Assembly: GCF_000025865.1 (NCBI RefSeq)
Contig: NC_014002.1
Span: forward strand, 744,001 to 808,000
Source: Methanohalophilus mahii DSM 5219
GTDB taxonomy: Archaea; Halobacteriota; Methanosarcinia; Methanosarcinales; Methanosarcinaceae
DNA: 64,000 nt
Reading direction: 5' to 3'
Both the position numbers and the translations under genes were made by a program. This document shows, in pieces, positions 44,972 to 55,365 of the stretch (positions are counted from its first letter, which is position 1; each line of letters starts with the position of its first letter). Under the pieces are notes generated by a model. That model did not search any database, had not been told where the DNA came from, and was given only the letters and a program-made list of their open reading frames with translations.

Positions 44972-46933
44972 TCAGGGAGGAGTTCCCGTCGTAACTTCCG
45001 CATATGCCCGTAATATTTCCGCTACACTCCATGCCTGCGAAATACAACCACCGGGATTATGTGGAGAGTCGCCATCAAAAACTTCAGAAACGGTATCTAT
45101 ACCTGCTTCATTAAAATGCCCGGTAAATCGAAGTATAAGAGTGCGACAATATTGTCTGCTATTCTCAGAGTTTCCATGTACTTTCAAATAACCACTGATG
45201 AAAAACCCAAACAGCCATGGCCACACTGTCCCATTATGATAGGCCTTATCCCTACTTACTGCATCTCCTTCATATTTTCCCACATATTTACTGTCAGCCT
45301 TTGAAAGGGTGCGCAGGCCATAAGGTGTTAATAAATCCTCTGCTACCTTTTGGAGTACATAGAATGCTTTATCTTCAGAAAGTACGGGAAATGGCAGGGA
45401 AATTGCAAATATCTGGTTTGGTCTTACAGATGCATCTTTTATTTCTGGATCCTCTGGGAAAATACAATCATAAAGGCATAATTTATCGGCATTCCAGTAT
45501 TTTTTGGCAAAGTTTTCCTTTATTTGATGAGCTAACTGTTTATAGTCTGAAGAAGGAACATCAATTGATTTCGCAAGCCAGGTAACTGTACAGAGAGCAT
45601 TGTACCATAAAGCATTAATTTCACAGGCTTTACCTTCCCGGGGAGTCACATTTAAACTACCAATTTTTGCATCCATCCACGTAAGCTGAGGTCCATGGCT
45701 AATCAACCCGTCAGAATCCATATGAATATTGTTTATAGTTCCTTTCATGTAATTTTCAATAATATCAGAAATTACAGGCCAGATATTGCTGACAAAAGCC
45801 TGATCTTTTGTGTAGGCAAAATATCTACCAACTGCATGGACAAACCATAAGGAAGCATCAACTGTATTATAACCTGCATCCCCATCTTGTCTATCCGGGA
45901 AATAGTTGGGAATCAAACCCTTGAAACAATATTTTGAAAAAGTTAAAAGTATCTGACGGGCTTTGTCATATCTACCTGTAACAAGTGTAAGCCCTTCAAG
46001 GGAGATCATTGCATCCCTGCCCCAGTCAGCAAACCAGTGATAACCTGCAATCACTGAAGCTGACAATGTGGTCTGCCTTTTCACAATAAAAGAATCAGCA
46101 GATAATCCAAGAGTTTTCATGAATGTATCAGTAACGTCTAATGCTGGGCAAACCTTTTTTCTTCTTGAAATTTCTCTCCTGAATTCTTCCTCAGCATTGA
46201 AATTTTCAGTAATTGCGGAAGTTGTTACAACAACATAAAAAACCTGTCCTGAATCTTTATCCATCCGGCCCTCGAAATAGCCGGGATTGTAAAGGTCTTC
46301 CTGATAATCCAGTCCTCTTTTCCTATCTGTTTCATATTCAAAATTGTAATACCAGTATGGTTTTGGATTATATTCCATGTTGGAATTCAATTCAAAACTG
46401 TCTTTACCATTGTAAATCATCACCTTATAAGCTTTGACTGATTGCCCAAAAGTAATATCATCCGATCTTTTTAATTGGTGAAAATTCCTGTATGTAACTA
46501 ACGGGAAAAGTCTCATTGTGATATTATCTGTTTCCCCGTTTATACTGTATCTGATAACGGTGGAATTTGTTCCATAAACCATGAAAATCTGTTTTTCCAG
46601 ACTTACATTATCGACGGAATAATTAAAGGTAGGTACCGGTTCCGTTGTATATCCTTTAAGATAGTGGAATCCTTTCGGATGAATTGTTTGTGGATATTTG
46701 TGGCTGGCAAGACGGTATATCTTTCCTCCAACTTCCAGTTCTTCATCCAGGCTGGAAAGAATTACTTTGCGCTCCACAGGTGCGTCTAAGGCTGCTATAA
46801 GCAATCCATGATATTTCCTGGTATTGGCACCGATAACAGTGGATGATGCATAGCCACCAAGACCATTTGTTACTATCCATTCCCTGGAAGCAAATTTTTC
46901 GTAACTTTTCTCATCTTCAGGAATATCCGGCAT
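44972..46933 (-). CDS. Archaeal glycogen debranching enzyme (amylo-alpha-1,6-glucosidase)
   Basis: 653 residues. The N-terminal beta domain (about 1-250) begins with REWIVTNGLGGYASSTVIGANTRKYHGLL, typical of the archaeal/bacterial GDE family. The (alpha/alpha)6 catalytic domain has ADWGRDAMISLEGLTLVTGRY, NTVDASLWFVHAVG, and YHNGTVWPWLFGFFISGYLK. It hydrolyses alpha-1,6 branches of glycogen. It is the last gene of the seven-gene glucan operon, ten bases after the GH15 gene. Confidence 0.92.
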   Translation of the reverse strand: MPDIPEDEKSYEKFASREWIVTNGLGGYASSTVIGANTRKYHGLLIAALDAPVERKVILSSLDEELEVGGKIYRLASHKYPQTIHPKGFHYLKGYTTEPVPTFNYSVDNVSLEKQIFMVYGTNSTVIRYSINGETDNITMRLFPLVTYRNFHQLKRSDDITFGQSVKAYKVMIYNGKDSFELNSNMEYNPKPYWYYNFEYETDRKRGLDYQEDLYNPGYFEGRMDKDSGQVFYVVVTTSAITENFNAEEEFRREISRRKKVCPALDVTDTFMKTLGLSADSFIVKRQTTLSASVIAGYHWFADWGRDAMISLEGLTLVTGRYDKARQILLTFSKYCFKGLIPNYFPDRQDGDAGYNTVDASLWFVHAVGRYFAYTKDQAFVSNIWPVISDIIENYMKGTINNIHMDSDGLISHGPQLTWMDAKIGSLNVTPREGKACEINALWYNALCTVTWLAKSIDVPSSDYKQLAHQIKENFAKKYWNADKLCLYDCIFPEDPEIKDASVRPNQIFAISLPFPVLSEDKAFYVLQKVAEDLLTPYGLRTLSKADSKYVGKYEGDAVSRDKAYHNGTVWPWLFGFFISGYLKVHGNSENSRQYCRTLILRFTGHFNEAGIDTVSEVFDGDSPHNPGGCISQAWSVAEILRAYAEVTTGTPP

Positions 46934-46943
46934 ACCTTAAACC

Positions 46944-48902
46944 TTATTCTTGAATGGTTTCGCTGTTCTCATAGTCATTTAGCAGGAGAATATTTGATAT
47001 CATAAGGGCACAGCTCCAGCTTAATGGGATGGCCCATGCAGGTCTGCCTGTATGCTTATCTACCTGTTCCGGTAACATTCCTGTACAGGTTGTTCCCCTA
47101 ATAGACCATTTAATGTATTCCAGGGCTGATTCTACGAGTTTGGTTTTCTCCTGAGTCCCAATCTTCTCTGAAACCGCCAGGGTAAGCATGGCACGGGAAA
47201 GCCAAAGAGTTGTTACTACCCAGGGATTACCTCCTATATAGTGGTCATCTTCGAAGCGCTTTATGCCGAAGTGGCCGTTAACCGGGATTTTCAGTTTTTC
47301 CGCCACATTATTTATCATTGAGATTATCATTTCCCTTTCCTGTTCATCTTCTGCTGACAGCATCCCGAAGGGGACAAATGTACCGATCATACTTGCATCC
47401 ACAGTAATATCAAGGGAATCATCTATTATACCCCGCCCAAAATAGCCTTCTGCAATCCACATTTTTTCGATTGTTGTATCTTTAACCAGAAAAGCCCGCT
47501 CACTCCAGCGTTGGGCAAGTTCTGGTTCCCTGTAATCCTCTGCCATGACAGCAGCGCTTTTCAGGCCTGCATAGATGGATGCATTGGTATAAATGAAAAT
47601 ACCCTGGTAGGTCTCCCATAAACCCCGGCAGGGTTCGTGTAGACCTTCAGGTGTTCTTTTCATTAGATATTCTGCTGCACTCAACACGGTAACCCACATC
47701 TCATCCAAAAACTCGAGTTTTTCGATTCCTTCCAGGGTCTGGTAATATCTTTCGATCGCAAATAATGTGGAGCCAGTCTCATCAATCTGGGTAGAACTCT
47801 TAAAATTACCCCAGGAAGGAGCTTCTTTTCCATCCAACCAGTATCTCTGGAACCAGGAACCGTCGGGAAGCTGGGTTTGTTTGCACCACCTGAAGAATCT
47901 GTCACAGTAGTCCGGATATGAAGCGTCCAGGAATGCAATTACCACTTCTGCGCAATCCCTGTTCCAGCAAAAACCATAACCTCCGCACATCTCAAAATCA
48001 TGATCGAATTCAGGAGCTGCAACAAAAGAACCATTTGAATCGTCGCTTAACAGATTCAGGCAGAGAAGGCACCGGTCATACATATCATAGAGTGATTCAC
48101 GGAATTTGGGTTCATTTTCGAGTTTTGGTAATTGGAGCACTTTTTTCCTTGAGAGCCATTTAGCCCAATGTTCCTGTGATTTATTCATCAGGTTTTCAAC
48201 TGGAATACTTGAAATAAACCGCATCCTTTTATAAAGTTTAGTCCTGTCAGAAGCCGCTCCCAGAAAGACGCTAATCGTCTTTTTTTCACCGGCTTTAAGA
48301 TCCAGGTCCCACCCGATTGCATTGTTGAGGTTGCCGATGTCTTCAGGATTGTTCTGAAGCTGTCCATCTTCCATATCATATTTTGCGTTTGTCCACCATA
48401 TCCTGTCTGAAGCTTTGCCTACCTGCCACTGGCTGAAGCGGGGAACAGATGTAAGTCCCAGGTGACAGGAATGACGGTACTGTACCAGCAGATCGGCATC
48501 TTCGTCACAGAATGCCGAATTTTTCTCATGGGTATCTCCCACTCGCAGGTCTGAGTAATAGAATAACTTGCCATGAAACTCCTGTCGGGAACATATCTCA
48601 TACTTTCGAATAAGAACAGGCAGATCAGGATGCACAAAATCCCTGATTTTTAATTTTATGCCAGATGGATGGGTAAGCTCGGTATTCACAATATTTGTTT
48701 CATCCATATAATCCTGTTTTACAGTCCACTCATGATTATTGGACCAGATCAGTTTTCCATCTGCATATATGCAGGCCTGGGAATCAACTACATGCTGTGC
48801 CCAATCCCTGCCGGGATAGAAGAAAGTTACAAGTTCTCCCTTCTTACCCATTGTTACCAGCAATTTATTATTACCGACTATGACGTTGGGCTGTTTTATC
48901 AA
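46944..48902 (-). CDS. GH15 glucoamylase-type glucosidase
   Basis: 652 residues. The N-terminal beta super-sandwich (about 1-260) begins KQPNVIVGNNKLLVTMGKKGE. The (alpha/alpha)6 barrel has APEFDHDFEMCGGYGFCWNRDCAEV, STQIDETGSTLFAIERYY and ARAMLTL-type helices, with EPCRGLWE near the region of the catalytic glutamate. Such archaeal enzymes release glucose from malto-oligosaccharides. There is no signal peptide, so it acts on internal glycogen. Thirty bases separate it from the GH57 gene upstream. Confidence 0.88.
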   Translation of the reverse strand: MIKQPNVIVGNNKLLVTMGKKGELVTFFYPGRDWAQHVVDSQACIYADGKLIWSNNHEWTVKQDYMDETNIVNTELTHPSGIKLKIRDFVHPDLPVLIRKYEICSRQEFHGKLFYYSDLRVGDTHEKNSAFCDEDADLLVQYRHSCHLGLTSVPRFSQWQVGKASDRIWWTNAKYDMEDGQLQNNPEDIGNLNNAIGWDLDLKAGEKKTISVFLGAASDRTKLYKRMRFISSIPVENLMNKSQEHWAKWLSRKKVLQLPKLENEPKFRESLYDMYDRCLLCLNLLSDDSNGSFVAAPEFDHDFEMCGGYGFCWNRDCAEVVIAFLDASYPDYCDRFFRWCKQTQLPDGSWFQRYWLDGKEAPSWGNFKSSTQIDETGSTLFAIERYYQTLEGIEKLEFLDEMWVTVLSAAEYLMKRTPEGLHEPCRGLWETYQGIFIYTNASIYAGLKSAAVMAEDYREPELAQRWSERAFLVKDTTIEKMWIAEGYFGRGIIDDSLDITVDASMIGTFVPFGMLSAEDEQEREMIISMINNVAEKLKIPVNGHFGIKRFEDDHYIGGNPWVVTTLWLSRAMLTLAVSEKIGTQEKTKLVESALEYIKWSIRGTTCTGMLPEQVDKHTGRPAWAIPLSWSCALMISNILLLNDYENSETIQE

Positions 48903-48932: not shown

Positions 48933-50138
48933 TTAGCGGTAGATATTTTTATCTTTGCCGGTAAGTTTTTTGAAGACTTGTGACTTGAAATCATTAATTA
49001 TTGCCATAAAATTTATGGCTGCGTCATAAGGGGATGTATGAATGCTGAAATAGGAATGAACATCCCCATCTCCAAGCCATTTAGTGCACATATAGTAATA
49101 ATGGTCTGATGTGAGAAAATGTTTCCAGATGTTTATGAGGTTCCTGTCACCTGTTTTTTTTACATAGGGTTCCAGTAGTCTCACCTCCTCGAAACACCTC
49201 CTTTGCATATCATTACCCAGCCATGCACTGGTGTCCCTTTCAATGTCGGCCCAGGAAATCGTATTAAAATCACCCACGTCAACTTCCCCTATTGTCTCAT
49301 AATTTCTTATTATTTCTGAGGGAGTGCTGAATACCAGATCCCTTTTGAGAACTTCCTGTGGAAGTGCACGAAGAAAATCAAATATCCCGGTGTCTGACCA
49401 TTGGTGTTCCCCGAAGGTCTCGTAATCCATGAATATATTCAGGATGTCGCCTTTTTCATGTGATGCCCAATCTGCCCATTTTTCGGCCGTCAGTGGATAC
49501 CCACTCCACCAGCGTGCAGAAAATCGGTATCCTATATCGTCGGTCAGCTTGTAGTTACGCAGCAGGACTTTCAGGTCACAATCTTTCGCTTTATACACAT
49601 GGTTGGGAGAAGCCACAAGTCCGTCAACACCCTCGGCAAGTATACCTCTGTATCCCATTTCCATGACATTTCTTGCGATACTGTTGTTGTAAAGCAACTC
49701 TGTATTCCTGAAGAAATGTGGTTTCACACCCACCAGTTCTGAAATGAGTTTATGATGCTCACGTACCTGTTCAGCAAATTCTGTCCTGTCATCAAAAAGG
49801 CCTGCTAGGGAATGGTAATTCGTCTCATCCAAAAACTCTACACAGCCGGTGTCGGCAAGTGCGCGGAACAAGTCGATGATCTCGGGATTCCACTGTTTGC
49901 ACTGGCTCAAAAGTGTGCCGGTGATCGAGACACTGAAACGGAAATCACCTTCGTATTGTTCAGCCAGCTGAAGCAGGGTCTTTGTTGCCGGCAGGTAGCA
50001 CTTATCAGCCACTTTCTCAAATATTTCCCGGTTTATAGCGCTATCGAAATACCTCTCAAACCCTTCCGAAAGGTCCGGCCAGAACCATTTCATGCGGTAG
50101 GGTTGGTGGAGCTGGAAGTACATGCAAATTGATTTCAT
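48933..50138 (-). CDS. GH57 alpha-amylase / glucanotransferase, catalytic residues intact
   Basis: 401 residues, the short GH57 form. The N-terminal MYFQLHQPYRMKWFWP holds the first family histidine. The nucleophile Glu147 lies in FFRNTELLYNN, and the acid Asp238 in FMDYETFGEHQW. GH57 enzymes retain configuration and either hydrolyse alpha-1,4 glucan or transfer maltodextrin segments; the short, domain-poor form does not tell which. It overlaps the next gene by four bases and its product is about 35 percent similar by eye to that neighbour. Confidence 0.88.
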   Translation of the reverse strand: MKSICMYFQLHQPYRMKWFWPDLSEGFERYFDSAINREIFEKVADKCYLPATKTLLQLAEQYEGDFRFSVSITGTLLSQCKQWNPEIIDLFRALADTGCVEFLDETNYHSLAGLFDDRTEFAEQVREHHKLISELVGVKPHFFRNTELLYNNSIARNVMEMGYRGILAEGVDGLVASPNHVYKAKDCDLKVLLRNYKLTDDIGYRFSARWWSGYPLTAEKWADWASHEKGDILNIFMDYETFGEHQWSDTGIFDFLRALPQEVLKRDLVFSTPSEIIRNYETIGEVDVGDFNTISWADIERDTSAWLGNDMQRRCFEEVRLLEPYVKKTGDRNLINIWKHFLTSDHYYYMCTKWLGDGDVHSYFSIHTSPYDAAINFMAIINDFKSQVFKKLTGKDKNIYR

Positions 50139-51277
50139 TTGCCCGCCTCCAGTATTGCACGTTTGAGGTCAGAAATAATGGAGAAAATATTTACCGCCCG
50201 CTCGGCACCAAGATTTGTATTTTCGTTTCCCATCTCAAGTAGGATTTCACTTTGCTGAAGACAGCGGTATATGTAGTTTAGGTTGCTATAATCAGGGCTA
50301 TCCCTGATATCCTTCAACATTTTGCTGATAATAGTAAGTTCATGAATATAGAGGTGCTGTATATGATTGCCTACCAGATTATGTAATCCGTAGCGTGCTG
50401 TGGAATTGGTTTTCAGGGTTTCCAGATGTTCGTGTTCGAAAACGTTGACTGCTGTCTGTGGTGATATTATGTCAATACCGTGTTTACCCAGACTCTCCGG
50501 TAGCTCGGCCAAAAACTGGCTTATATTACTTTGCTTCTTATGGTGTCTAATCAGAGAGTCGAAACTGAAATACAGGGTTACAACATCACCTTCCATATTT
50601 GCTATCCAGGATGCAAATTTATCAGCAATAAGTGGGTAGCACACCCAGCCTCTGTCCGAAAATCGTGTATCTATATCCTCACTTAGATTTATGTGGCGCA
50701 TTAATGTTGGCATATCACCCCTGTACACGTGTAGGGGACCTCCCTCATGTATCATGTTGTCCGATCCTTCACAAATATAACAACTAAATCCCATATCTCT
50801 GATGGCTGGAACAATATTTTTGGCGATTAGCAATTCCGAATTAATGAAGGTTTTAGGTTCATACTTGAAAAGTTCCTCTATTTTAGTCCTATGCATTTTG
50901 ACCTGTTCCCTGAATTCTGTGCTGTCAGGGAACAGGGCTGCAACTGAGTGGAAATAGGGGGAACATGCAAAGCCTGCTCCCCTGTTTTTGAGCTCTCGGA
51001 AGGAATCAATTACAGCAGGATGCCAACGACATTGATCCAGAAATATCCCGGAGACATTAAAAGTGTAGGAGGCTCCCCTGTCGATGGATTCCAGCAGTGC
51101 CTCATTCATGGAAAGAATATCAGGTACAACTTTTTCAAATCTGGAATATATTCGGTGCTGGTCAAAAAATCTTTCGAATTCTACTGTAGAATAACTTTCG
51201 TCCGGCCAGTACCATTTTACATCATAGGGTATATGGACCTCGCAACAGATGCATACAGCTTTCATCTCGTTCACCAC
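50135..51277 (-). CDS. Degenerate GH57 paralogue lacking the catalytic acid
   Basis: 380 residues, plainly a copy of the gene downstream of it: VHIPYDVKWYWPDES, SGIFLDQC, YFHSVAALFPDSTEFREQV and FLAELPESLG match in order and spacing. The nucleophile region is kept (INSELLI, Glu148). The acid motif MDYETFGEH of the paralogue is FSFDSLIRH here, with Ser238 at the position of Asp238 and the Glu-x-Phe-Gly lost. The enzyme is probably inactive as a hydrolase, yet the frame is intact and translationally coupled to its active sister. A regulatory or carbohydrate-binding subunit is the simplest idea. Confidence 0.85.
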   Translation of the reverse strand: MVNEMKAVCICCEVHIPYDVKWYWPDESYSTVEFERFFDQHRIYSRFEKVVPDILSMNEALLESIDRGASYTFNVSGIFLDQCRWHPAVIDSFRELKNRGAGFACSPYFHSVAALFPDSTEFREQVKMHRTKIEELFKYEPKTFINSELLIAKNIVPAIRDMGFSCYICEGSDNMIHEGGPLHVYRGDMPTLMRHINLSEDIDTRFSDRGWVCYPLIADKFASWIANMEGDVVTLYFSFDSLIRHHKKQSNISQFLAELPESLGKHGIDIISPQTAVNVFEHEHLETLKTNSTARYGLHNLVGNHIQHLYIHELTIISKMLKDIRDSPDYSNLNYIYRCLQQSEILLEMGNENTNLGAERAVNIFSIISDLKRAILEAGK

Positions 51278-51289
51278 TTATCAGTATAA

Positions 51290-52483
51290 TTATGCAAAAA
51301 TGCTACAATTTTCTTTATTTTTCCCGGTCACATCTTTATAGACTTCTGTTGTCTGTTTTGCGATATTTTTCCAATTATACTTGCTCCGGATTAACTGGTG
51401 ACCGTTAATGCCCATTTCATTGTTGTGCACATTATCAAGCACATAATTTATTCCCCAGGCAATTGATTCCGGATTCTGGTACACAAGCACACCATTTTCG
51501 AAATTATCTATGATATTCACAGCATTTGTGGCCACTATATTCTTACAGGCATCCCAGCCTTCCAGCACCACAATGCCGAAGGGTTCGTTGCGGCTGGGTA
51601 CACAAAGGATATCACAGGCATTGATCCAGTTTTGGCGAACCTCATCGGTTGCATAACCTGAAAAGAAGCAGTATTCAGAAACCCCATGCTCTTTTACCAG
51701 AGCCTCACAATCAGGTCGCATATCTCCTTCTCCAATGAACATAAATCTCGCGTTCCAGTGTTTATCAAGTATATACGGGATTGCTCTGGCCAGCATATCC
51801 GGCCCCTTCTGGTAACTCATACGGCCTACAAACAAAACTACGGGTGCAAAAGGGTGGAAACCGAAATCGTGTTTTACCTTGCCCTGGTTTACCTCCTTTT
51901 TAATCCTGCCCGGTAAAATTCCATTGGGAATTATAGATATCTTATAATCGGGTATTTGGTAGAGATGCTGGACCTCTTTTTTGAGTTGCAGGGATGTAAC
52001 GATAACATGTGTGGATTCATAGCCACCCAGCCATTCCCTGTGAGAGATTTCCTCAAACTGGTAGCCTCCCCTGTATATGCTGCCGTTGCGTCCCCATTCG
52101 GTGCTGTGATAGGTGATTACAAAAGGGGTTCCGTCTTCATTTTTTAGCCGGGTAAGAACATTGATAGGATGCCAATCGTGCATGTGAACCACATCAAATT
52201 TTCCATACTGTTCTGAAACGTCCTTAAAAATGGAATACATGGAATCACACATGCTATCCATCTGGTGCAGAATATCCTCTGAGAGATCATGGTCAACACG
52301 ATGATAATGAACCCCGTTTATTGTTTCATGAGTACCAAGGCCACAGTTACGAGTGAATATATGGACCTCATGTCCAAGTTCTACAAGATTTTCAGATAGT
52401 TCAGAAACATGTGGTGCCAATCCTCCAACTTTTACAGAATGCAGACTCTCCCAGGAAAACATTCCGATTCTTAAATATGTCAT
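51290..52483 (-). CDS. GT4 glycosyltransferase, glycogen-synthase-like
   Basis: 397 residues from the ATG at 52483, chosen because the N-terminus then begins directly with the GT4 strand TYLRIGMFSWESLHSVKVGGLAPH, and AAGGTGGG is upstream. Two Rossmann domains are visible: the donor site has VLFVGRMSYQKGPDMLARAI, and NEPFGIVVLEGWDACKNIVAT carries the conserved E-x7-E. It probably transfers glucose from UDP- or ADP-glucose to a glucan. Twelve bases separate it from the degenerate GH57 gene. The operon also carries a GT3-type synthase, so this one could serve priming or maltose-phosphate-like steps. Confidence 0.85.
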   Translation of the reverse strand: MTYLRIGMFSWESLHSVKVGGLAPHVSELSENLVELGHEVHIFTRNCGLGTHETINGVHYHRVDHDLSEDILHQMDSMCDSMYSIFKDVSEQYGKFDVVHMHDWHPINVLTRLKNEDGTPFVITYHSTEWGRNGSIYRGGYQFEEISHREWLGGYESTHVIVTSLQLKKEVQHLYQIPDYKISIIPNGILPGRIKKEVNQGKVKHDFGFHPFAPVVLFVGRMSYQKGPDMLARAIPYILDKHWNARFMFIGEGDMRPDCEALVKEHGVSEYCFFSGYATDEVRQNWINACDILCVPSRNEPFGIVVLEGWDACKNIVATNAVNIIDNFENGVLVYQNPESIAWGINYVLDNVHNNEMGINGHQLIRSKYNWKNIAKQTTEVYKDVTGKNKENCSIFA

Positions 52484-52503
52484 AAATGCACAACCCACCT
52501 TTG

Positions 52504-53499
52504 TTAAAGTAAATTTGTCTTCAATTGCTCTACTGCTTTTTCCGGGGCCATTGTATTGATGTAAATCCCTGTATTCTTTTCAAAGCCTGCTGCTATGGAT
52601 GTAACCGGTTGTATCTTTACATTGAAATGATATTCCGGGTCATCATTAAGCTGGTAAAACATGTAATTATAAGGCAAATCACCGATTGAGTTGCTTAATA
52701 CCGAAAGAGAGACTTGAATCGCATCACCCAGAAATCTCAACAGGTCGTCCGTGAAATCAGATATATGATGAATGTGTCGCTGTGGCAGAATCCATAATTC
52801 ATAGGGGACCTTAGAACAATAAGGAGCAATGACTATGAATTCCTCATTGCGGTACAAAAGCCGATTACTTCCGTATTCTTTTACCAGGATATTGCAGTAA
52901 GGACAGGTTTCAGAAGATTTTATTGTCTGGATTTCTCTTTTCAGTGTTGGAGGCATAACCGGAAGTGCAAGTAACTGGGAATGGGTATGTGCAATAGATG
53001 CACCTGCCCTTTCGCCTTTGTTTTTGAATAGTGAAACGTATTTGATCTTTTCCAGTGATTGATAATAATTCACTTGTTCTTTGTAGGCTTTCATTAGAAG
53101 CAGGATTTCATTATCCGAAAAATCAGGGATTTGCCTCGAATGTTTTGGAGTTTCTACAATAACTTCATGGAAACCATAGCCTTCCATTGCCTGGAATTCG
53201 GTATTGGATACTTTTGCGGGATTCTGTATTAATGCCGGATAAAGGTTGGGAAAACACCTTATATCCCAATCTTTGATCCTGAATTTTTCCGAATCCTGAA
53301 GAATTTGCCCCTCCTTATAAACAGCTGTAGCAGGAGGCGTTTTTTCTTCATGACCTTTGCAGAAGACACAATCAGATGTCTCCTTTTCCAATACATCTCC
53401 CAGGTAATCAGACGGACGCTTGCCTCTGCCTGGTGCTATTATGCAATACTCATCCAAAAAATAGTGTTTGCGTATTTGTGACATGTACCCACTACCCAT
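52504..53499 (-). CDS. galT: Galactose-1-phosphate uridylyltransferase family protein
   Basis: 331 residues, a member of the HIT superfamily. Zinc-type cysteine pairs are CVFCKG and CPYCNIL, and the active site is ASIAHTHSQLLALP, whose histidine forms the uridylyl intermediate. The start may be the ATG at 53499 or that at 53484. GalT moves UMP between glucose-1-phosphate and galactose-1-phosphate; archaeal and bacterial relatives with this length may also act as UDP-glucose or ADP-glucose-type nucleotidyl transferases or phosphorylases. Its place between two glucan synthase genes suggests supply or recovery of the sugar nucleotide. Confidence 0.87.
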   Translation of the reverse strand: MGSGYMSQIRKHYFLDEYCIIAPGRGKRPSDYLGDVLEKETSDCVFCKGHEEKTPPATAVYKEGQILQDSEKFRIKDWDIRCFPNLYPALIQNPAKVSNTEFQAMEGYGFHEVIVETPKHSRQIPDFSDNEILLLMKAYKEQVNYYQSLEKIKYVSLFKNKGERAGASIAHTHSQLLALPVMPPTLKREIQTIKSSETCPYCNILVKEYGSNRLLYRNEEFIVIAPYCSKVPYELWILPQRHIHHISDFTDDLLRFLGDAIQVSLSVLSNSIGDLPYNYMFYQLNDDPEYHFNVKIQPVTSIAAGFEKNTGIYINTMAPEKAVEQLKTNLL

Positions 53500-53559: not shown

Positions 53560-55365
53560 TTATTCCATTCTTTTTCCTGTCAGCATTTCATAATATTTCT
53601 TAACCGGATCCCGCCAGTTCATATCATATGCAAGAAGATTTGCTTCCCGGCACAGGAGGTTGTACTTAATCCGGTCATCAGTATAGGTCTCAATAAAATA
53701 ATCCATTGTCAATGCGTAATCTGCTATAGTCTCAATGTAGGGCAAAGTGATATTATCGACGACTATGACTCCGCCCATACCCATAACCAGACGCTTGAGG
53801 GTTTTCAGAGCGTCACTAAAGCCACAAACCTTACTGACAATACTCGGAGTTGCCTCCTTACCTGCTTCCAGTCCGGTTAGCAGGAAAGGCTCATACTTGG
53901 AGGGAAAGATTCCCGCAATGCAACCTGACATTACTTCATCTACTTCCATATTCAGGCCACCATCATTGCCTGACAGCCACTGAGGATAAAATACTGCGCC
54001 TACGTGCCGATTCCCGCTGACCAGCCTAGCTGCATCAAGGCCACGTTCAAGGATCATATTTTGAAGCCTGAGCTCAGACCCTATCAAAATCTCTTCAGGC
54101 AATTCTATAGGGAAATTTTCGGGTGGATTGGTTTTTGGTCCATGAGCTGTAATTATAAAACATACTACCCTGTAACCTTCATCCAGGCGGGAAGATTCGA
54201 TTTCTATTCGTATCATCCTGTCAAGAAGCACAAGCGAATCAAGGAGATCCGGATAACCCTTGTTATCAATTTCTATACGCGATAAACTAAAAATCGGGAT
54301 TATTTTCTCAGGATCGATGGGAACCCCATCATACACCTTGTGCAGCTTTTCAGACAGGAATTTCTGAATTTGCTTCCTGCACTGATTTTTCTTGTCCCAT
54401 GAGATCTCTTCACTTTCAGTATCGAGCTCAATACCATTGCGCACCACAATTGAATCGATGCCATAGAAAAGCGATATCTCTTTTTTGGTTGAATCTCCTA
54501 CAGCTGTGACAACATCGGCATAGGAGGCGAGAGATTCCAGCTTTGCCATATTTATGGGTACACCTGCATCCCAGGTGCTGTCATTGTCCCGAATCTTTTG
54601 GATTGAACGATGCCCTGCTGCCCTGCCCGGAATAGTGGCATGGCAGGTGGCAACTGAATTCACCCTTACTCCCAATTTTTCGAGCCGGGCTATTGCGTAA
54701 AAGAGGCCGAATTCGTGGCAATGCAGCGATACGTAGAGTGTGGGCATAAGGGATGTCACGAATTCCGAGATTGCCCTGTCTGAATACTTTTCGCTTTCTT
54801 CCTTTTTTATTGAGACCAAAGCACGGACAAATTCAGAAACTGCATACGATATATTGAGGTAGTGGGTATACTCATTACCATTACCCATACTTTCATAGGT
54901 CCTGGAATCCAACCCTATCAAGTCATAAGCTTCTGCTTTGATCTTATTCTCGAGGCAGACGTGCTTTCCTTTGTACTCAATTGTTTTCCGGCAGTAATCA
55001 TTTGTCTTGAACATAAGGTATATGATTTCTATGCCTCTTATATTGCGTGACCTGGCAACCAGGTCAACTCCTTCTTCACTTAGCTTTGTAAAGACACTTT
55101 TGAGTTCTTCGTCAGGTTCAAACTCATCCAATTCGCTCAGGTCAGTTATCCTGTTAAGACTCTTGTTCCAGTCAACTCCGCTGTGATCAAAATAAGGACT
55201 TGCGACAAATATCCTGGTTTTTGGTTCCTCATCAATTGTACCGTCCTCAAACAGTGCTGCAAGCGTCTTAACTTCAGCATCGATAACATTCCATATGCCC
55301 CCCATCTTATTGGATTTAGGCCCGGCTTCTTCGCCGGCTATTATTATGCATTTGCGTTCAAGCAT
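53560..55365 (-). CDS. GT3-type glycogen synthase (eukaryote-like)
   Basis: 601 residues. It starts with AGEEAGPKSNKMGGIWNVI, the donor-binding strand and glycine loop of glycogen synthases. YVSLHCHEFGLFYAIARLEKLG and ATCHATIPGRAAGHRS follow, and the catalytic acid region is FPSKYEPFLLTGLEAGKEATPSIVS. The last fits the GT3 family of yeast and animals, which uses UDP-glucose, more than bacterial GT5. It is the first gene of the operon. GGTGG is four bases before the ATG, and a TATA element lies about 70 bases upstream. Confidence 0.87.
   Translation of the reverse strand: MLERKCIIIAGEEAGPKSNKMGGIWNVIDAEVKTLAALFEDGTIDEEPKTRIFVASPYFDHSGVDWNKSLNRITDLSELDEFEPDEELKSVFTKLSEEGVDLVARSRNIRGIEIIYLMFKTNDYCRKTIEYKGKHVCLENKIKAEAYDLIGLDSRTYESMGNGNEYTHYLNISYAVSEFVRALVSIKKEESEKYSDRAISEFVTSLMPTLYVSLHCHEFGLFYAIARLEKLGVRVNSVATCHATIPGRAAGHRSIQKIRDNDSTWDAGVPINMAKLESLASYADVVTAVGDSTKKEISLFYGIDSIVVRNGIELDTESEEISWDKKNQCRKQIQKFLSEKLHKVYDGVPIDPEKIIPIFSLSRIEIDNKGYPDLLDSLVLLDRMIRIEIESSRLDEGYRVVCFIITAHGPKTNPPENFPIELPEEILIGSELRLQNMILERGLDAARLVSGNRHVGAVFYPQWLSGNDGGLNMEVDEVMSGCIAGIFPSKYEPFLLTGLEAGKEATPSIVSKVCGFSDALKTLKRLVMGMGGVIVVDNITLPYIETIADYALTMDYFIETYTDDRIKYNLLCREANLLAYDMNWRDPVKKYYEMLTGKRME

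Follow-up and report, generated by a model that had tools for sequence, protein, structure and literature searches.

Among described systems, the closest class to the locus analyzed here consists of the alpha-amylase-like (AAMY-like) proteins of glycoside hydrolase family 57 (GH57), which are without catalytic residues; of the 126 studied by Janecek and Blesak, 60 were archaeal (PMC6037648). In catalytic members of the family, the Glu of conserved sequence region 3 (CSR-3) is the nucleophile and the Asp of CSR-4 is the proton donor (PMC6037648). Deletion of the single GH57 gene amyA in Sulfolobus acidocaldarius abolishes glycogen accumulation (PMC8158581), and it is an open question how branched glycogen is built in archaea that lack a classical branching enzyme (PMC11046441). 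We analyzed a 64,000-nucleotide (nt) stretch of Methanohalophilus mahii DSM 5219 (assembly GCF_000025865.1, contig NC_014002.1, positions 744,001 to 808,000; hereafter the window, in whose numbering all coordinates are given). The M. mahii SLP genome comprises 2,012,424 bp in one contig (PMC3017947). The window contains two overlapping GH57 genes on the minus strand, one with a complete active site and one with a degenerate active site, and the degenerate gene is a selectively maintained paralogue that is inherited together with its active sister.

Degeneration of the catalytic site and history of the clade

Both open reading frames (ORFs) were intact and belonged to GH57: PF03065 matched the active copy with E = 1.8e-79 and the degenerate copy, across residues 12–285, with E = 2e-45. 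The two proteins were 30% identical across 399 columns. The active copy (401 amino acids [aa]; 48933..50138, minus strand) had the nucleophile Glu169 (codon 49632..49634, minus strand) and the acid/base Asp238 (codon 49425..49427, minus strand), both identified by alignment and invariant in approximately 80 paired homologues; the SWAD loop and the Asp-His of CSR-5 were also essentially invariant in paired active copies. The degenerate copy (376 aa; 50135..51265, minus strand) retained the nucleophile as Glu166 (codon 50768..50770, minus strand; equivalent to active Glu169), and this Glu was found in all 84 distinct degenerate homologues. Because loci overlapped partly between collections, distinct proteins or distinct junctions were counted where relevant. 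The acid motif MDYETFGEH of the active copy aligned without gaps to FSFDSLIRH in the degenerate copy, so that the ExFG was gone and a Ser (codon 50564..50566, minus strand) occupied the acid/base position.

An earlier interpretation made from the DNA letters (the sequence-only reading) had described this gapless alignment, the replacement of Asp238 by Ser, the loss of ExFG and the retained Glu, all of which the alignment confirmed. Its list of lesions was correct but incomplete. In the M. mahii degenerate copy, CSR-5 (the fifth GH57 signature) was altered from SDHYYYM to SEILLEM, and all degenerate members had a SEILLEM-type segment instead of the two tyrosines of the alpha-amylase type. The SWADxERDxSAW loop had a 5-residue deletion, and Glu105 of the active copy was replaced by Ser in 80/84 degenerate homologues. 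Active-copy Asn195 was replaced by His in 83/84 and His346, within CSR-5, by Ile in 78/84. Other residues were kept, namely Arg190 (84/84), Asp197 (84/84) and Trp207 (82/84). Conservation within the degenerate clade was 0.81–0.85 in pocket segments 105–110, 143–148, 194–206, 211–224 and 293–312, compared with 0.61 in the rest of the protein; CSR-4, at 0.58, had the lowest value among the signature segments. Thus, one half of the pocket is strongly constrained, and constraint on the acid side is relaxed. At fifteen positions, the degenerate clade had a fixed residue unlike the one conserved in the active clade; the pocket has therefore been remodelled and is not simply decaying. Only one divergent degenerate copy (G080) had lost the nucleophile too, and it still adjoined its active partner. 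Degenerate copies with C-terminal tails of 36–60 aa occurred in four Methanosarcina-like loci (L029, L092, L109 and L110), and the tail in L092 was a charged repeat (VVPENRAIQEEN-like).

The acid site of the 84 distinct degenerate homologues was occupied by Asn (36), Lys (31), Asp (13), Arg (3) or Ser (1), the Ser being that of M. mahii, which led us to reject Ser238 as a marker of the clade. The sequence-only reading had proposed testing whether the Ser and the pairing are conserved as a clade, and had held that the pseudoenzyme idea would fall if the Ser were unique. The Ser was unique, yet the broader idea survives through the clade itself, its selective maintenance and the invariant Glu. 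In a tree of 94 GH57 proteins, all degenerate copies formed one clade (support 100) and all paired active copies formed another (support 98), both lying among the phylum's single-copy GH57 amylases; the two genes are paralogues produced by duplication. The stem branch of the degenerate clade was long (1.1). Basal degenerate copies (lineages f2 and f4) retained Asp at the acid site and a partial CSR-4 (LYIDCATFGGHH, LYMDYASFG), as did Methanomethylovorans and Methanosalsum natronophilum for the Asp; other Methanosarcinaceae copies had Asn, Lys, Arg or Ser. Parsimony required three changes between the states Asp and not-Asp. All members of the degenerate clade have lost CSR-5 and the loop, so that, most simply, these losses preceded that of the acid. 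On that reading, the defining event would be the early loss of CSR-5 and the loop, followed later by loss of the acid, and not the D238S replacement. Most single-copy GH57 proteins (L130–L141, L149–L152, L158–L159 and L162–L163) carried a C-terminal tail of approximately 90–100 aa with a weak, DUF5752-like match; such a tail was present in 0/81 paired active copies.

Junction, selection and co-inheritance

The listed ORF of the degenerate gene begins with GTG at 51277 and encodes 380 aa. An ATG at 51265 gives 376 aa and is the more likely start, because GGTGA lies 5 nt upstream and homologues (30 in the alignment used for the feature) all align to that Met. Of the gene span first proposed, 50135–51277, the end was thus retained and the start displaced, which makes the acid-site Ser residue 234. 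The four-base overlap claimed between the GH57 genes was found as the stop/start sequence ATGA at 50135..50138 (minus strand), and all 77 distinct −4 junctions were ATGA. A GGAGG Shine-Dalgarno motif of the active gene (50146..50150, minus strand) sits within the end of the degenerate gene, 7 nt before the active ATG. The motif was conserved, with Shine-Dalgarno-like sequences at 76 of the 77 distinct −4 junctions (GGAGG in 65, GAGG or GGAG in 11). Spacing of the pair was −4 in 53 of 56 named loci, and the remaining glycogen-operon junctions varied widely.

Both genes were under similar constraint. The median ratio of nonsynonymous to synonymous substitution rates (dN/dS) was 0.078 for the degenerate copy and 0.071 for the active copy (59 close pairs, some redundant), and purifying selection on the degenerate copy is as strong as that on the active copy. 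Among Methanosarcinaceae genomes that were 90% or more complete, 68 carried both GH57 genes and none carried just one; at least 7 Methanosarcinaceae genomes had neither. Within Methanohalophilus, five genomes lacked the pair, the GT3 synthase and the glycogen debranching enzyme (GDE), and three had all of them, in agreement with the report that glycogen enzymes occur only in M. mahii and M. halophilus among the strains compared (PMC6491703). Conservation across dozens of genomes excludes chance as the source of the degenerate GH57 pattern. The clade, the dN/dS and the junction together bear out the proposal of a degenerate, selectively maintained paralogue that is translationally coupled to an active sister.

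Nearly all loci with the pair had a GH15 gene immediately downstream of it, and the order degenerate-active-GH15 was kept in Methanosarcina, although the synthase genes are located elsewhere there. An exclusive association of the pair with GH15 was rejected, since GH15 was also present, at other locations, in genomes that have just one GH57. A V4R-domain protein (approximately 270 aa, PF02830) was located between the active GH57 and GH15 in two sister lineages (L155:6966-7778 in G051; L154:8482-9318 in G080), giving the order degenerate-active-V4R-GH15; this protein is possibly a small-molecule sensor of the GH57 module. In G080 (L154:7237-11174), three consecutive genes (active GH57, V4R and GH15) contained in-frame TAG codons, and their frames stay open if TAG is read as a residue, which suggests that TAG is decoded as sense (pyrrolysine) in that lineage.

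Proposed role of the pair and alternatives

The degenerate gene would encode a pseudoenzyme that arose when the GH57 amylase of the glycogen operon was duplicated in tandem long ago. With its acid/base residue and the CSR-5 and loop residues gone, the degenerate copy would have lost the normal two-step GH57 reaction; with the Glu-lined half of its pocket retained, it probably still holds an alpha-glucan chain. Translated just before the active GH57 and coupled to it, it would most likely be made in matched amount. The two proteins may then form a heteromer whose degenerate subunit binds a glucan chain, or orients it, for its active partner while glycogen is being made or trimmed. The sequence-only reading had proposed an enzyme-pseudoenzyme heteromer that positions or senses glycogen, and a sensing role would be equally conjectural. 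A part in branch formation is conceivable, as GH13 is absent from the genome and GH57 is represented by this pair alone. A pseudoenzyme coupled to the active GH57 in a glucan-presenting heteromer is the reading that we favor, albeit tentatively.

Several results weigh against it. Neither a natural fusion of the two genes nor a same-frame pair was found among 118 neighbouring pairs, and many relatives in lineages f7 and f3 have a single GH57. The acid Asp in basal members, Methanomethylovorans and M. natronophilum leaves some doubt about whether every member of the clade is fully inactive. In a mirror-tree (distance-matrix) test on 21 complete operons, the degenerate copy correlated with GT3 at 0.955, with GalT at 0.953 and with the active GH57 at 0.915, so the pair was not singled out. 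GT3 also had the highest partial correlation with the degenerate copy (0.49), as might be expected if that copy were a stand-alone glucan-binding or regulatory protein that acts with something else, for instance the GT3 synthase or the glycogen particle itself, and coupling merely set its dose; the retained pocket half would also fit such a binder. However, Methanosarcina and several other lineages have GT3 elsewhere and still keep the pair together, f4 genomes carry the pair without a GT3 match, and the constraint on the junction involves the active GH57. We consider this alternative unlikely, though it deserves attention.

Myrosinases keep the nucleophile and have lost the acid. The degenerate copy could similarly be an enzyme of altered chemistry that uses an activated donor or another acid, a notion that fits a fixed nucleophile beside a drifting acid site and the Asp of basal members. 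It accounts poorly for the accompanying loss of CSR-5 and of the SWADxERD loop; moreover, no acidic residue consistently replaces Asp238, and the G080 orthologue without a nucleophile remains beside an active partner, so that we judge altered chemistry improbable. The degenerate copy might instead help the active GH57 to fold or stay stable and have no dealings with glucan, which would explain the upstream position and the coupled translation. In line with this, AmyA, the only GH57 of the S. acidocaldarius operon, was not expressible in any system tried (PMC8158581). Conservation is nevertheless concentrated in the pocket segments, which a pure scaffold would not need, making this role very improbable. 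Faster evolution and the long stem branch could indicate a decaying duplicate, or incipient pseudogene, but this is refuted by a dN/dS of approximately 0.08, uninterrupted reading frames in those complete copies that were inspected, sites invariant in 84/84 homologues and the constant junction; we find it scarcely credible.

Glycogen operon and comparison with known systems

The pair belongs to a glycogen operon on the minus strand, in the order GT3, GalT-like, GT4, degenerate GH57, active GH57, GH15 and GH133. Upstream of the pair are a GT3-type glycogen synthase (53560..55365; PF05693), a GalT-like nucleotidyltransferase (52504..53499; PF01087) and a GT4 glycosyltransferase (51290..52498; PF00534/PF13439 and synteny). 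Downstream are a GH15 glucoamylase-type gene (46944..48902; PF00723, TIGR01577 and synteny) and a GH133 archaeal-type glycogen debranching enzyme (44972..46933; TIGR01561, PF06202). Neither GH57 received a name from NCBIfam. A second GT3 synthase, outside the glycogen operon of a congener (G007, C1:1865027-1866829), was 94% identical to the M. mahii GT3, and the operon copy of that genome just 81%; the extra gene looks like a transfer or an additional copy.

A search of the M. mahii genome found no GH13 protein, and therefore no GlgB-type branching enzyme, and no GH57 beyond these two; the pair is thus the sole visible branching-enzyme candidate. The missing branching enzyme of Methanosarcinales might be a two-subunit GH57, in which the active copy would cut and carry the chain and the acid-less copy, whose Glu pocket is retained, would present the acceptor to which that chain is joined at alpha-1,6, but we attach only a small probability to this idea. 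Known GH57 glycogen branching enzymes (3p0b, 3n8t and 5wu7) share their fold with the predicted structures of both M. mahii copies. Their solved chains are approximately 510–550 residues long, whereas the active copy has 401 aa and PF03065 only, and it does not have the long architecture with an extra C-terminal domain. AlphaFold2 models, made of single chains only, had a predicted local distance difference test score (pLDDT) of 82 and a predicted template modeling score (pTM) of 0.85 for the degenerate copy, and a pLDDT of 77 and pTM of 0.79 for the active copy, the weaker model. The solved folds closest to both predicted structures were the GH57 enzymes 7e1y, 1k1x, 1ufa and 3p0b. These were reached through fold comparison only; sequence searches of solved structures with each single protein gave no match.

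The degenerate clade, with its acid lost and its position among GH57 amylases, is likely to be among the 60 archaeal AAMY-like proteins. The claim that the module is undescribed was accordingly too strong, as GH57 proteins without catalytic residues are already published; the text on them (PMC6037648) mentions neither a pairing of genes nor a junction, a clade or a partner, unlike what we describe for this pair. No description of an obligate active/degenerate GH57 pairing was found in the literature covered, from which the AAMY-like species lists and Janecek and Blesak 2011 were absent. In the glg operon of S. acidocaldarius, the GH57 AmyA is likewise accompanied by a glucoamylase and a debranching enzyme, without GlgB, but the published operon has one GH57 gene (amyA) and lists no degenerate partner (PMC8158581).

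The strict pairing and wide conservation of an active and a putatively inactive GH57 offer a concrete, testable candidate for branched-glycogen synthesis in the genetically tractable Methanosarcina, and the asymmetric degeneration, with a fixed nucleophile and a variable acid, is a natural experiment on the purpose of a dead glycosidase site. The plant isoamylase heteromer ISA1/ISA2 likewise consists of active and noncatalytic alpha-glucan paralogues retained together by selection, and ISA2 alters glucan structure without catalysis (PMC12510319). In M. mahii, a paralogue judged noncatalytic from its residues is similarly conserved beside an active one. ISA1/ISA2 are isoamylase-type GH13 proteins, whereas the M. 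mahii pair is GH57; ISA2 varies at the nucleophile, which the degenerate GH57 keeps; and the ISA1/ISA2 complex is physically proven, whereas the GH57 pair is known here from genes. If the proposed heteromer forms, it would be a prokaryotic parallel to this plant enzyme-pseudoenzyme pair.
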